The translations under genes and the position numbers were made by a program. Positions 56,492 to 61,426 of a stretch of 64,000 nucleotides of DNA are shown piece by piece (position 1 is the first letter of the stretch; every line of letters begins with the position of its first letter). The notes under the pieces are model-generated. The model did not search any database, had not been told where the DNA came from, and saw only the letters and a program-made list of their open reading frames with translations. The DNA is taken from NCBI GenBank assembly GCA_946554335.1, contig CAMNSA010000007.1, forward strand, positions 1 to 64,000, read 5' to 3'. This DNA comes from an uncultured Neglectibacter sp. Lineage in GTDB: Bacteria > Bacillota > Clostridia > Oscillospirales > Acutalibacteraceae.

Positions 56492-56520
56492 TTTACTTTA
56501 TCCGCTTTTTTCACTATAAT
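56492..56520 (+). promoter_or_regulatory. Promoter of the first MATE gene
   Basis: TTTACT (56492-56497) and a perfect TATAAT (56515-56520) are separated by 17 bp, about 70 bp before the MATE start codon. Confidence 0.75.
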
Positions 56521-56593
56521 GAATTTCGTTGTTTCCCACGCCCGGAGGAAATTACCCCGGGCAGCCAAGAAAATCGCAAGGAGGAGTTCGTCC

Positions 56594-57988
56594 ATGGGAA
56601 GCGTTCAGCCGGATAAAAATTCTGATTTTTCCCAGGGGAGCATGGCGGGAAATATTTTATGGCTGGCTCTTCCCATGACTATCGCCCAGCTGATCCATGT
56701 GCTATACAGCGTGGTGGACCGCATGTACCTGGGGCGTATTCCCCAGGCGGGCGCGGACGCCCTCACCGGCGTGGGCGTCACCTTTCCCATTATCGCCATC
56801 GTTACCGCCTTTGCCAATCTCTTCGGCATGGGCGGCTCGCCCCTGTTTTCCATGGAACGGGGCCGGGGCAACACAGCCCTTGCCGGGCGAATCATGGGCA
56901 ACTGCTTTTTTCTTCTGGTGTCCACCGGCGCCGTGCTCACCGGTATCTTTTTCGCCTTTAAAAAGCCCCTGCTTTACGCCTTCGGGGCCAGCAGTATCAC
57001 CTTCCCCTACGCGGACGGGTATCTCACCATCTATCTTTTGGGCGCCATCTTTTCCATGCTGAGCCTGGGGATGAACTACTTCATCAACGCCCAGGGTTTC
57101 GGCCGCAAGGGGATGATGACCGTGCTTCTGGGGGCCGCCGTCAATCTGCTTTTGGACCCTCTTTTCATCTTTGTCTGGAACATGGGAGTGCAGGGAGCCG
57201 CCCTGGCCACCGTCATTTCCCAGTTCGTGTCCACCCTCTGGGCCGTCTGGTTCCTCTTTTCCAAAAAGGCGGTGGTCCGCCTGGAGCTTTCCGCCATGGA
57301 GCTGAAGCTTAAGCTGGTGGGAAAGATTTTGGCTTTGGGCTTTTCCGGGTTTATTATGTCCGTGACCAACAGCGTGGTGCAGGTGGTGTGCAACTCCACT
57401 TTGCAGGCCTTTGGCGGGGACCTCTATGTAGGGGTGATGACCGTGCTCAACTCGGTGCGGGAGGTGGTTTCCAGTCCCTTAAGCGGGATCAACAGCGCCG
57501 CCCAGCCCGTGATCGGCTTTAACTACGGGGCGGAGGAATACCGCCGGGTGAGAACAGGGATCAAATTCCTCTCCTGGGTCTGCATCGGCTACACTACTCT
57601 GATCTGGCTGCTGCTGTTTTGCTTCCCCGGGGTGTTCATCCGAATGTTCACCAATGAGCCGAAGCTTTCCACAGCCGCCGTGCCCGCCATGCACATCTAT
57701 TTCTTCGGCTTCTTTATGATGGCGCTGCAAAACGCTGGGCAGACCACCGCCGTAGCCCTGGGCCGCTCCAAGCAGGCGATCTTCTTCTCTCTGCTGCGCA
57801 AGGCGGTAATCGTGGCGCCCTTGACTCTCCTGCTGCCCAACCTCTGGGGCTTAGGCGTAAACGGTGTGTTTTTGGCGGAGCCGGTTTCCAATTTCATCGG
57901 CGGCGGAGCCTGCTACCTCACCATGCTTCTCACCATCTGGCGGGAGATCAAGCGCAAGGAACAGGAAAGGCTTTCCGCCGAACGCTAA
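56594..57988 (+). CDS. MATE-family multidrug exporter
   Basis: A 464-residue twelve-helix antiporter of the MATE family. The N-terminal part (LALPMTIAQLIHVLYSVVDRMYLG) and the second half with AQPVIGFNYGAEEYRR repeat the family pattern. MATE proteins export cationic drugs or other small molecules using sodium or protons. The ATG has AAGGAGG upstream. Its 3' end faces the ABC-F gene. The substrate cannot be inferred. Confidence 0.9.
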   Translation: MGSVQPDKNSDFSQGSMAGNILWLALPMTIAQLIHVLYSVVDRMYLGRIPQAGADALTGVGVTFPIIAIVTAFANLFGMGGSPLFSMERGRGNTALAGRIMGNCFFLLVSTGAVLTGIFFAFKKPLLYAFGASSITFPYADGYLTIYLLGAIFSMLSLGMNYFINAQGFGRKGMMTVLLGAAVNLLLDPLFIFVWNMGVQGAALATVISQFVSTLWAVWFLFSKKAVVRLELSAMELKLKLVGKILALGFSGFIMSVTNSVVQVVCNSTLQAFGGDLYVGVMTVLNSVREVVSSPLSGINSAAQPVIGFNYGAEEYRRVRTGIKFLSWVCIGYTTLIWLLLFCFPGVFIRMFTNEPKLSTAAVPAMHIYFFGFFMMALQNAGQTTAVALGRSKQAIFFSLLRKAVIVAPLTLLLPNLWGLGVNGVFLAEPVSNFIGGGACYLTMLLTIWREIKRKEQERLSAER

Positions 57989-58110: not shown

Positions 58111-58140
58111 CTGACAACTAATATCTAAAGTCTAACGACT
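58111..58140. repeat. TAAC-rich repeat tail, copy at the ABC-F stop
   Basis: CTGACAACTAATATCTAAAG and the following TCTAACGACT are a close copy of the dispersed tail. The ABC-F stop codon (58127-58125) and its last three sense codons fall inside it. Confidence 0.7.
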
Positions 58141-59714
58141 GTTCCCTCCCTCAGCTTCCGATCTTCCAGGCGAATGACTCTGGTGGCGATCTTTTCAATA
58201 AAATACCGGTCGTGAGAGACGCAGAGGAGCGTTCCCCGAAAATCTAGCAGGGCGTCCTCCAGGAGCTCCCGGGTCTCAATATCGATATGGTTGGTGGGCT
58301 CGTCCAAAAGCAGGAAATTCACCTCCCGCCGGATCAGGACGGCAAGCTTCAAAAGCACCTTTTCTCCGCCGGACAACATGCCGGTATTCTGAAACACGCT
58401 GTCTCCGGTAAAATAATATTTTGCCAGAATATTTCTGGCCTGCCCCTCTGTGACCGTGACCTCCCGGCGGAAGGCCTCCAGCACCGTGTCTGTCTCCGGG
58501 GAAAAGCGGATCTCCTGGGGGATATAGCCGATTTTAGTGCTGGGGTTCCGCACGATTTTACCGCCGTACTCCACTCGCTCCCCCAGCACGGCCCGGATGA
58601 GGGTGGTCTTTCCCGTGCCGTTGCCGCCGATGAGACAGACCCTATCCTTTTCCCGCACCAGCAGCTCACCTCCTTCCAGTAGGGAAGAACCGGAGAATCC
58701 CAGAGAAAAATCCGTGAGCTTTAGCACCTCTTCCCCAGTTCGCCCGCCGCCGAAGGCGAGATCCAGCTTCTTTTTCTCCGACTGGGGACGGTCTATAACC
58801 TCCATTTTTTCCAGCTGCTTTTCAAGCTGGGCGGCCTTGCGGAAAAACTTGGGATTATCCCCCCTGCTTCCCCAGTCCCGGAAGCGCTTTATGGCAGCCT
58901 TCATAGCGTCGATCTTTCGCTGCTGATTCTTATACTGCTCAAATTCCAACAGCATCAGGCGCTCCTGCTCCTTTTGGGCGAAGGAGTAATTTCCCGGGAA
59001 GGAGGTGCATTTTCCCCCTTCCAACAGGATCGTGCGGGTGGCCACACGGTCCAGAAACCAACGGTCGTGGGAAACGAGGACCACGGTGCCCCGATACTTA
59101 TTTAGGAAGCTCTCGAACCACTCCAAAGTCTCCATGTCCAGATGATTGGTAGGCTCGTCCAGCAGCAGGATATCCGGCTGGCGGAGCACGGCGGCCGCCA
59201 GATTCACTACGGTCTTCTGACCGCCGCTGAGCACATTGTACTTCCGGTCAAGCAAGTCGGTCAGCCGGAAGCCCCCGATCACCTTGCTCCGGCGTTCCTC
59301 CATCTCATAACCCCCCAGGGCAGTGTAGGCCTCCTGGGCCCTTGTGTACCGCTCCATCACCGCATCCAGAGAGGCCTCAGACACTGTCATTTCCGCTTCC
59401 AACTCCCTGAGGCTCTGTTCCAAGGCCAGCACCTGGGCGAAGGGCTCCAAAAGCACCTGCTCCACGGTTTTCCCCGGATCCCGCAGAGGAGGGATCTGTG
59501 GGAGCATCCCCACCACTGTCCCGCGGCGCAAGGTCACCTCTCCCCTATCCGGAGTCTCCTCGCCGCAGATCAGGCGGAGGATGGTGGATTTTCCGGTCCC
59601 GTTGCGCCCTACCAGGGCCGCCCGCTCCCCTGTCATGATCTCCAGCGAGGCGCCGTCCAGCACCTTGCTGAAGCCATAGTTTTTTACGACCTGATTCATT
59701 CCGATTTCAATCAT
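58125..59714 (-). CDS. ABC-F ATPase, possible ribosome-protection type
   Basis: A 529-residue protein with two ABC domains and no membrane part. Walker A motifs are VGRNGTGKST and GGNGTGKTT, signatures LSGGQ and LSGGE, and Walker B LLLDEPTNHLDME and LLLDEPTNHIDIE. The linker between them (about residues 245-300, ending WGSRGDNPKFFRKA) would reach into the ribosome. ABC-F proteins act in translation, many giving resistance to peptidyl-transferase drugs. The leader carries a small ORF and terminator, which supports an inducible resistance gene. The final codons lie in a dispersed repeat. Confidence 0.92.
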   Translation of the reverse strand: MIEIGMNQVVKNYGFSKVLDGASLEIMTGERAALVGRNGTGKSTILRLICGEETPDRGEVTLRRGTVVGMLPQIPPLRDPGKTVEQVLLEPFAQVLALEQSLRELEAEMTVSEASLDAVMERYTRAQEAYTALGGYEMEERRSKVIGGFRLTDLLDRKYNVLSGGQKTVVNLAAAVLRQPDILLLDEPTNHLDMETLEWFESFLNKYRGTVVLVSHDRWFLDRVATRTILLEGGKCTSFPGNYSFAQKEQERLMLLEFEQYKNQQRKIDAMKAAIKRFRDWGSRGDNPKFFRKAAQLEKQLEKMEVIDRPQSEKKKLDLAFGGGRTGEEVLKLTDFSLGFSGSSLLEGGELLVREKDRVCLIGGNGTGKTTLIRAVLGERVEYGGKIVRNPSTKIGYIPQEIRFSPETDTVLEAFRREVTVTEGQARNILAKYYFTGDSVFQNTGMLSGGEKVLLKLAVLIRREVNFLLLDEPTNHIDIETRELLEDALLDFRGTLLCVSHDRYFIEKIATRVIRLEDRKLREGTVVRL

Positions 59715-59775
59715 TGCAGTTTCTCCTGTTCTATGAATGGCGGGGCCTTAGGCCCGGCCGGGTTTTGAGGGCATA

Positions 59776-59821
59776 GAAAAAGAGACCCGTCTGCTGCCGA
59801 TCAAGCGGCAGGAAGAGTCTC
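59776..59821 (-). terminator. Attenuator terminator before the ABC-F gene
   Basis: On the minus strand a stem GAGAC..CTGCCG pairs with CGGCAG..GGTCTC around a 6-nt loop and is followed by TTTTTCT. It lies between the leader ORF and the ABC-F start, so readthrough is needed for ABC-F expression. Confidence 0.8.
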
Positions 59822-59865
59822 CTCAGGAATTTCTGCAAGCGATTCAAAGAGAGATCATAGGCAAA

Positions 59866-59884
59866 AGCCTTGCCTAACTCTTAA
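59866..59884 (-). other. Hairpin overlapping the leader ORF stop
   Basis: The minus-strand sequence TAGGCAAGGCTTTTGCCTA forms a 7-bp stem immediately at the leader ORF stop codon. It may be an alternative structure to the terminator, or part of an antiterminator. Confidence 0.5.
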
Positions 59885-59981
59885 AAAAGGGCGCAGAAAT
59901 CCCCGTTAGCCCTGCAATGAACGCAAGAACCAGACTGCTGCTGCTCAGAATTCTGGTTCGTGAAAACAGGGATTCAGACAT
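59874..59981 (-). CDS. 35-codon leader peptide of the ABC-F gene
   Basis: A short ORF starting ATG with the strong site AAAGGAGGG 6 nt upstream and ending TAG. The peptide begins MSESLFSRTRILSSSSLVL and ends SAPFFKS; it has a hydrophobic middle. The coding stretch can also fold through AACCAGA/TCTGGTT arms. Location between promoter and attenuator, and the absence of any other gene in this 355-bp region, make it a regulatory leader peptide of the type seen upstream of ABC-F and Erm genes. It could alternatively be a small membrane peptide. Confidence 0.7.
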   Translation of the reverse strand: MSESLFSRTRILSSSSLVLAFIAGLTGISAPFFKS

Positions 59982-60016
59982 CCCGCGCCCTCCTTTCTTT
60001 TCTTAATCTGACTATA

Positions 60017-60045
60017 AGTATATCAGAAGGCAAAAAATACCGCAA
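60017..60045 (-). promoter_or_regulatory. Promoter of the ABC-F leader transcript
   Basis: On the minus strand TTGCGG and TATACT are spaced by 17 bp, about 35 bp before the leader ORF start. The -35 box is poor. Confidence 0.55.
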
Positions 60046-60070: not shown

Positions 60071-61426
60071 CTATGATTCATTTCCCAAATTGCGGTAATT
60101 TCTCCGGATTGCTAAAAAATAGTAGATCATCACAAACACCGCCGAGAAAAACCAGCCCAGGGGAAAGCCGATATACACATTGGTCACCGTGTGATTGACG
60201 CCCATGGAGAGATAAAGCCACAGCTGGCGGCAGCCGATCATCCCCACAAGGGACAGCACCATCACGGCCTTAGACTTTCCAAAGCCCCGTACGGCGTTGG
60301 AAAACACCTGGTTGAGGGACTGAAAGTAATAGAGGGGGACCATGGTGGTGATCATGGAAACGCCATAGGAAATAGCGTCAGTGGAATCGGTAAAGATTCT
60401 CACAAAGAAGGGCGCGAAGAAGTAGATGATCACTCCCGGCACGGCAATGCCTCCAAAGGCCATGACAAGACAGAGCCGGATCCCCTGAAAGGCCCGGCGA
60501 ATCTTTTGCGCGCCGATATTCTGGCTGACGAAGGTGGTGATGGCAAGGCCCAGAGACTGGGCAATCATTCCCACGAACTTATCGATCTTTTTCGCCGCGC
60601 CAATCCCGGCCATAGCCGAGGAACCGAACTCGTTTACATAGCGTTGGACGAAGAGGTTGGAGATGGCGATCAGGCTGGTCTGAATGGCGGCGGGCAGGCC
60701 CAGGTTCATCACCTGCAGCAAAAGCTCTTTGTCGATTTTCAGATCCCGGATCACAAGCCGGTACACATCGTGGGTTTTGATCATCTTGCGAAACACCAGG
60801 ACCACCGAGAGACATTGGGAAACGATGGTGGCAAGGGCCACGCCGGAAACCCCCAGACGAAGCCATTTGACAAAGAGAAGGTCCAGAACGATATTGGTGC
60901 AGCTGGCCACGATGAGATAGTAAAGCGGATTTCTGGAATCCCCCACGGCCCGCAGCACACCGGAGCCCACATTGTAGATGGCCGTAAAGAGGATCCCCAC
61001 AAAATAGATCCGCAAGTAGAGCGAGGCTTCCGGGTAAACATCCTGCGGGCAGCTCACGACTCTCAGCAAAACCGGGGTCAGCACCACGCCCAAAGCCGCC
61101 ATGAACACCCCTAAAATCACGGCGAACAGTACGGCGGTATGGATGGCGTCGTGGAGTCTTTCATAGTTTTTCGCCCCGTAAAACCGGGAAAAAAGCACGC
61201 CCGCTCCTGTGGCAAGTCCCGTGAAAAAGCCCACCAGCAGATGGGAGATATCGCTGCAGGAGGTCACTGCCGCCAGAGCGGTGGTCCCCACATATCTTCC
61301 CACCACGATGGAATCCACGCTGTTATAGAGGTTTTGAAAGATCTGACCGATCAGAATGGGCAAAGCAAAGCTGACGATCAGCTTTACAATATTGCCCTGG
61401 GTCAGATCCACACTGCTTTTCTTCAT
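60071..61426 (-). CDS. MATE-family exporter, DinF-like
   Basis: A 451-residue twelve-helix MATE protein (LTQGNIVKLIVSFALPILIGQIFQNLYNSVDSIVVGRYVG begins as in the family; the second half has AQNIGAQKIRRAFQG-like region). It is different from the first MATE in the window. It exports drugs or metabolites by ion exchange. The start has GGGAGAAG upstream. It shares direction with the ABC-F leader downstream; the 25 bp between its stop and the ABC-F promoter suggest separate promoters. Confidence 0.9.
   Translation of the reverse strand: MKKSSVDLTQGNIVKLIVSFALPILIGQIFQNLYNSVDSIVVGRYVGTTALAAVTSCSDISHLLVGFFTGLATGAGVLFSRFYGAKNYERLHDAIHTAVLFAVILGVFMAALGVVLTPVLLRVVSCPQDVYPEASLYLRIYFVGILFTAIYNVGSGVLRAVGDSRNPLYYLIVASCTNIVLDLLFVKWLRLGVSGVALATIVSQCLSVVLVFRKMIKTHDVYRLVIRDLKIDKELLLQVMNLGLPAAIQTSLIAISNLFVQRYVNEFGSSAMAGIGAAKKIDKFVGMIAQSLGLAITTFVSQNIGAQKIRRAFQGIRLCLVMAFGGIAVPGVIIYFFAPFFVRIFTDSTDAISYGVSMITTMVPLYYFQSLNQVFSNAVRGFGKSKAVMVLSLVGMIGCRQLWLYLSMGVNHTVTNVYIGFPLGWFFSAVFVMIYYFLAIRRNYRNLGNES

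Follow-up and report, generated by a model that had tools for sequence, protein, structure and literature searches.

In the portions of the published accounts on which this comparison draws, the leaders of vmlR, cplR and the ARE5 genes carry short upstream open reading frames (uORFs) encoding MIN, MRI, MLV and MVGDDDISG (PMC9226507, PMC10201436, PMC12421871). The same portions describe terminators combined with masking of the main ribosome site for vmlR and cplR (PMC9226507, PMC10201436) and, for the ARE5 uORFs, stalling at the start codons by lincomycin, clindamycin, tiamulin and pristinamycin IIA (PMC12421871).

The leader analyzed here precedes an ABC-F gene in a window of 64,000 nucleotides (the whole stretch of DNA that was studied). 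With Bacillus subtilis vmlR (uORF MIN) it shares a uORF set in 5' structure, an intrinsic terminator, a masking hairpin and – here by computation – re-pairing when an initiating ribosome stalls; in the account of vmlR that is cited, however, the uORF has three codons (35 here) and an antiterminator competes with the terminator, whereas terminator T2 of the window is unswitched in fold calculations (PMC9226507). Clostridioides difficile cplR (MRI) likewise combines transcriptional with translational attenuation and has an anti-SD element, but there, as described in the part cited, the terminator stem masks the main ribosome site, a role taken here by a separate element (PMC10201436). In the Streptomyces ARE5 leaders (MLV of are5scL1, MVGDDDISG of tiaAL) a lincosamide, streptogramin A or pleuromutilin stall occurs at the uORF start, as is proposed here, and the uORF ribosome sites overlap antiterminator hairpins, as they do here; the phylum is another one and the ORFs in the portion cited are shorter (PMC12421871). 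The msrD leader (MsrDL, MYLIFM) also places an ABC-F gene behind a leader ORF and a terminator, but the cited part of its description reports macrolide arrest at the stop codon and regulation at the level of transcription (PMC10314930). By computation, the window leader would work on the principle of the VmlR, CplR and ARE5 leaders, but its ORF has 35 codons and provides the lock at its far end. Since the uORF is not conserved, the leader is counted as a variant that works like this group and is not assigned to any named family of leaders.

The leader lies between a MATE efflux gene (61426-60071) and the ABC-F gene (59714-58125), all on the minus strand. In 5' to 3' order it comprises an extended -10 element, the leader ribosome site, the 35-codon ORF, a hairpin at the stop codon, T2, a GGGCC/GGCCC hairpin, and the ribosome site and start of the ABC-F gene (Table 1). 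A sequence-only reading of the locus had described a promoter, a 35-codon ORF with a strong ribosome site (Shine-Dalgarno sequence AGAAAGGAGG), a stop hairpin, an intrinsic terminator and an ABC-F start at 59714: sequence and folding bear out this arrangement. A promoter upstream of the leader ORF is plausible, and is the weakest part. The extended -10 (TG-A-TATACT, 60022-60017, minus strand) follows a weak -35 (TTGCGG, 60045-60040, minus strand, three of six consensus matches), and the site is below the threshold of a consensus promoter scan and absent from its list. The 301-nt leader as a whole is strongly structured, with a folding energy of -118.7 kcal/mol compared to -94.6 (sd 4.9) for shuffled sequences (z -4.9; none of 100 shuffles as stable). 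A search of Rfam across the whole window gave no match at gathering score, and thus no known leader or riboswitch.

Table 1. Features of the ABC-F leader and gene, with positions in the window.
Feature	Position	Strand	Basis or remark
Promoter-like site: -35 TTGCGG (weak), 17-nt spacer, extended -10 TGaTATACT	60017..60045	-	By consensus only
Element 1: leader ribosome site to A of AUG (AAAGGAGGGCGCGGGA); 5' arm of 16-bp lock	59981..59996	-	Shuffles
Leader ORF, 35 codons, MSESLFSRTRILSSSSLVLAFIAGLTGISAPFFKS	59874..59981	-	ORF call
Elements 2/2b: AACGGGGATTTCTGCGCCCTTTTTT, end of leader ORF; 3' arm of lock and of T1 (U6)	59883..59907	-	Folding
Small hairpin AGGCAAggcTTTTGCCT overlapping leader stop codon	59859..59875	-	Seen by eye; present in fold
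Element 3: TGCAGAAATTCCTG; partner is element 2 (14 bp) or ABC-F ribosome site	59824..59837	-	Folding
Intrinsic terminator T2	59777..59824	-	Expected 3' end ~59776; folding
Short hairpin GGGCCtaaGGCCC (GGGCC/GGCCC)	59743..59755	-	Sequence
Element 4: CAGGAGAAACTGC, ABC-F ribosome site, predicted masked by element 3	59716..59728	-	Folding
ABC-F protein, 529 aa, two ABC domains	58125..59714	-	Profile search

Folding predicts helices that compete for the same sequences. Element 1 (59996-59981) and the last part of the leader ORF (59898-59883, TTCTGCGCCCTTTTTT) can form 16 contiguous bp, and only one of 300 dinucleotide shuffles contained a helix of equal or higher score. In the minimum-energy fold this 1:2 helix is prolonged by a helix of about 9 bp (59973-59965 with 59907-59899), such that the whole ORF becomes a single hairpin, T1 (59998-59883; -51.1 kcal/mol), which ends in GCGCCC followed by U6 (U tract 59888-59883) and may be an active transcription terminator. 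Element 2 (59905-59892) can alternatively pair with element 3 (59837-59824) over 14 bp, a score reached by 11 of 300 shuffles. Element 3 in turn has an alternative partner in the ABC-F ribosome site (element 4, 59728-59716). When the transcript is cut after T2 and before element 4, the minimum-energy fold contains the 2:3 helix even without a ribosome: the off state therefore requires either that 1:2 has formed first, or that element 4 is present. The 1:2 helix is complete 46 nt before element 3 begins, and its early formation is thus possible. Separately, nine leader bases, TCATTGCAG (59920-59912, minus strand), are exactly complementary to the region of the ABC-F start codon (59719-59711), a pairing that could possibly provide a further way of masking initiation.

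The effect of a ribosome on these helices was computed by keeping the bases under a ribosome unpaired, with the footprint placed at each leader codon in turn (37 states in all), under six footprint settings, of which those beyond the main one covered 13 codon positions only. Without a ribosome P(1:2b) is 0.97, P(2:3) is 0.00 and P(3:4) is 0.75. With a ribosome at codons 1-3 the order is reversed – P(1:2b) ≤0.01, P(2:3) 0.94-0.97 and P(3:4) ≤0.04 – and these three positions switch the RNA on under all six settings. Codons 4-5 are intermediate; at codons 6-35 (main footprint) P(3:4) is 0.54-0.75, with the lowest value at codon 11, where the shift is partial (P(2:3) 0.28). With the main footprint, a ribosome at the stop codon turns the switch on again, and narrower settings give this result at codon 35 instead. 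For the AGGAG core of the ABC-F ribosome site, the probability of being unpaired rises from 0.04 without a ribosome to 0.63 with a ribosome at the leader AUG.

Two sets of null sequences, designed after the helices had been seen, left the 5' leader, the encoded peptide and the start of the ABC-F gene unchanged; synonymous leader codons were drawn at random and the spacer was shuffled. In the first set, where the best of codons 1-3 for the observed leader was compared to the best of codons 1 and 3 for the nulls, none of 139 equaled the observed change (one was as large in the opposite direction). In the second, where codon 1 was used for observed and null sequences alike, none of 712 equaled the change and four reached half of it.

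Beyond these direct results – the elements in the sequence, their competing helices and the switch as computed – we propose, with moderate confidence, that the leader is an RNA switch under ribosome control, with its sensor at the start of the leader ORF, and that it acts by translational release of the ABC-F ribosome site. In the free RNA, or where leader ribosomes are quick to leave the start, 1:2 would be locked and 3:4 would mask the ABC-F ribosome site: the gene would be off. A ribosome held at leader codons 1-3 would cover element 1, leaving element 2 to pair with element 3; the ABC-F site would then be released and the gene would be on. Agents capable of holding a ribosome there would include inhibitors of early peptide-bond formation (lincosamides, pleuromutilins, streptogramin A), and such drugs would be expected to act on the leader in this manner by analogy with the systems above. 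The features of an initiating-ribosome ABC-F attenuator are in part recognizable: a leader ORF with a strong ribosome site stands between the gene and a promoter (the latter by consensus only), and a ribosome at the leader start refolds the RNA and frees the main site (as computed). As to removal of a terminator by the change of fold, T2 is unaffected, and T1 – a candidate terminator – would go, since the same block at codons 1-3 would prevent its formation. Conservation of the uORF among homologues was not found, the leaders of relatives being different.

That codons 1-3 flip the switch and codons 6-34 do not indicates that the likely sensor is the start of the leader and not the sequence of its peptide. 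The sequence-only reading had held that the peptide sequence selects the drug class, a claim that is supported neither by the position of the switch (codon 11 being partial) nor by the searches for the peptide elsewhere. A peptide-specific arrest, in which the nascent leader – by way of R-T-R at codons 8-10, its hydrophobic stretch or its APFFKS end – would cause a stall in the presence of a macrolide-like drug or another drug of the tunnel, in the manner of MsrDL or ErmDL, is accordingly a reading that we consider unlikely, even though several observations speak for it. R-T-R fits the Arg/Lys-X-Arg/Lys motif as given in the cited part of PMC10314930; the stop codon or codon 35 exposes the ABC-F site under some footprints, as codon 11 does partly; and a motif conserved among leaders at related loci (see below) suggests peptide-specific arrest there. 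Nevertheless, codons 6-34 (main footprint) leave the ABC-F site mostly masked. A ribosome on R-T-R itself keeps P(3:4) at 0.72-0.75, a stall at codons 9-10 would require a queued ribosome at the start, and the peptide is not conserved.

Searches for the leader outside its own genome bear on this last point. The peptide has no family match at E≤0.001 and no convincing homologue beyond its own genome among 295 genomes of the order, and hence no conserved arrest motif of the MsrDL/ErmDL type could be recognized in those genomes; the sole other match (E 0.007, 42% identity) contains an in-frame stop and was taken as chance. Among 198 genomes the leader DNA is matched in full in its own genome only, the other matches being 23-38 nt long (one in its own genome and one each in eight others). 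No similar leader was found by BLAST (low-complexity filter on) among plasmids (19 records; alignments 26-42 nt long, best E 0.08) or phages (nine records, best E 0.3). With no second copy found in any of these sets, the leader helices have no covariation or other evolutionary support.

T2 consists of a stem of GAGACUC..GGGUCUC plus CUGCCG/CGGCAG and a U tract at 59781-59777. It folds with -23.5 kcal/mol (four of 200 shuffles were as stable); a consensus terminator scan did not list it, which we think is because of its internal loop. Its probability is 0.91 in all 37 ribosome states: at equilibrium the leader helices do not regulate T2. On the footprint folding, T2 was rejected as the regulated terminator, and the earlier claim that stalling prevents termination at 59776 is not supported. 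Folding the leader for alternatives, which the sequence-only reading had advised, brought to light the competing 16-bp and 14-bp helices, unreported until then, and left the formation of T2 unaltered. According to the proposed switch T2 would be a second terminator, one not switched by the helices, that probably lowers basal readthrough. Transcripts would be expected to end at both T1 and T2, and if any terminator is regulated, it is more likely T1 than T2.

Indeed, T1 might be the whole of the mechanism: a ribosome on the leader start would block the leader's own terminator hairpin, and masking of the ABC-F site would be incidental. The stability of the hairpin (-51.1 kcal/mol) and its end, GCGCCC then U6, are in keeping with this, but the loop is long and made of side helices, which we take to be unusual for an efficient terminator, and the exchange between 2:3 and 3:4 exceeds that of all 712 nulls; we regard attenuation by T1 alone as improbable. 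Still less probable is a fixed leader for weak expression, in which a terminator and a masked ribosome site keep ABC-F levels low with no response to drugs. A T2 that is unchanged in all states speaks for such a leader, and a start-dependent switch far beyond the nulls speaks against it. That the 35-aa ORF encodes a small membrane protein with its own function, the structures being incidental, is highly improbable: the peptide does have a hydrophobic middle and charged ends, but there is neither family match nor convincing homologue, and its last codons are a switch element.

Within the genus, five of 29 genomes (the genome of the window included) have a match to the ABC-F gene at E≤1e-160; of 398 genomes sampled evenly from the family, no more than two, this one and one other, reach 1e-170. 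Thirteen related loci, with 47-71% identity, were collected, and the 11 with at least 350 nt upstream were retained (L058, with 109 nt, and L059, with 81 nt, were left out). A leader ORF is present at 10 of the 11 and none was identified in L055. Together with the folding of the leader, the footprint switch and the nulls, this makes a ribosome-responsive attenuator ahead of the ABC-F gene, as the sequence-only reading had it, much the likeliest reading. The same leader as in the window was sought upstream of these homologues and was not found, the 10 loci carrying other leaders: a leader is kept in position among relatives, as that reading expected, and the window's peptide is not. Neighboring genes differ as well. 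Of 11 loci searched, one (L053) has a MATE gene in the flank available, with distant similarity to the window's two (31% and 23%). Rfam searched on ten loci at E≤0.1 returned three tRNAs only.

Two of the related leaders (L056 and L057) are identical, so that nine distinct leaders were examined. Their peptides, with the starts chosen, are 18-26 aa long and unlike that of the window; examples are MVLKKQGRFYFRVGSDVLRTNPMDAE (L050), LVLMKNDRFCFRIGSDVLHTSPMNAD (L049, TTG start), MYLINYRAFSFRPTFKTLRASL (L005, where the ribosome site lies outside the search pattern and the leader was read from the sequence), MLLSAYGFRTWSTVLRTKSVVQ (L054, TTG start) and MCVYKQTVLIYTSNITLR (L056). A TATACT/TATAAT box is found at variable distance, up to 90 nt upstream of the leader start, in seven of nine (not in L050 and L051). 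Most of the nine (L049-L054, L005, L006 and L056) combine an M-hydrophobic-L start with an xL(R/H) motif, and are on this basis a candidate arrest-peptide family. In seven leaders, 11 of the 12 nt centered on the xL(R/H)x codons can pair with a partner downstream, and in two (L006, L056) nine of the 12 can; in L056 the partner is the ABC-F ribosome site, which looks like chance. Both sides of this helix change together in L049, L054 and L005, as judged by eye, pairs having been tallied per sequence and not as an alignment-based count of covariation. The helix is part of the minimum-energy fold in six of nine (L049, L050, L052, L053, L005 and L006, not L051, L054 or L056), and in L049, L050, L051 and L054 the hairpin is followed by a U-rich tract, which is less clear or lacking in the others. 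A hairpin with one arm made of xL(R/H) codons was not met in the publications consulted, which were not selected by motif.

Footprints were placed on the related leaders as well, at every second codon in those longer than 20 codons. A ribosome at the leader start clearly exposes the ABC-F site in one of nine only (L056, from 0.02 to 0.60); in L052 exposure rises from 0.36 to 0.48, and in the remaining seven it is almost unaltered. Internal positions expose the site in L054 (codons 9-19), L051 (codons 19, 25 and 27) and L005 (codon 13). Given that a start ribosome is ineffective in most relatives and that internal positions are effective in some, the sensor of most relatives is likelier to be inside the peptide, plausibly at the xL(R/H) codons.

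These differences allow a reading that we offer only tentatively: that within one ABC-F clade (gut Oscillospiraceae and kin) the sensor module may have been swapped, most members having arrest-like xL(R/H) leaders and the window an unrelated, initiation-sensing leader with a lock between its SD sequence and its last codons. The sensor, and hence the inducing drug class, would then evolve independently of the resistance protein. If true, this would mean that relatives within one genus can have the same ABC-F gene wired to different ribosome signals, and that peptide-specific sensing of a drug does not have to follow from a long leader ORF; the xL(R/H) leaders would be a candidate family of arrest peptides in gut bacteria. 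The 69 more distant loci (L060-L128) and a further 21 (L007-L027, the genomes being partly shared) did not, by eye, have the arrangement of the window. Short ORFs occur in only some of these, several being the tails of upstream genes, and L007 has a long candidate of other sequence. Two records from further afield, one of Listeria monocytogenes (L153) and one of a Staphylococcus epidermidis plasmid (L152), contain ABC-F genes at ~40% and 38% identity that are preceded by long hydrophobic leader ORFs (36 and 48 aa); these, too, begin with MFL.

The protein itself passes the NCBIfam model NF000355 ('ribosomal protection-like ABC-F') with 399.9 bits (cut-off 380), and Pfam finds ABC_tran in two stretches plus ABC_tran_Xtn, that is, two ABC domains with an ABC-F linker. 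Scores to the named resistance subfamilies (Vga, Lsa, Msr, Sal, OptrA, CplR) are well below the cut-offs, among the best 25 of 188 families. The cut-off of NF000355 is also exceeded in eight of 14 control genomes, so that passing it is no proof of resistance; that the ABC-F protein confers resistance is suggested more by the leader than by the protein. MATE-family efflux genes stand on both sides of the ABC-F gene (window positions 56519-57988 on the plus strand and 60071-61426 on the minus strand), and the three genes look like a local drug-resistance-like cluster. Six peptide patterns found no ABC-F in viral contigs. The same genome has another ABC-F gene on contig C1 (C1:30516), with 309 bits to NF000355, below the cut-off. 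Upstream of it (L029, ~1283-1294) is a tripeptide uORF, Met-Arg-Lys, with a ribosome site, followed (by eye) by a GC-rich hairpin and then UUUU; the cited part of PMC9226507 lists MRK among the variants of the vmlR uORF.

The end of the leader ORF (59882-59903, minus strand) carries the motif GGGATTTYTGCGCCCTTTTTTA. With up to two mismatches this motif is found in six of 80 genomes, compared to no match for the reversed control pattern. The motif or a near variant lies just upstream of genes that read as integrase- or recombinase-like (L146, L144, L138, L140, L143, L150 and L151), where an inverted repeat stands before it and the reading frame varies. As GGGATTTYTGCGCCCTTTTTTA or a near variant also precedes recombinase-like genes, one idea is that a mobile element may have supplied the end of the leader. 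A close variant ends a hairpin upstream of a gene for a tetracycline-type ribosomal protection protein in another genome (L147, G002); the matching place in the tet(W) and tet(M) plasmid records is occupied by GGGGATTTTTATGCCC and GGGATTTTTATGCCC, which are related but different in sequence.
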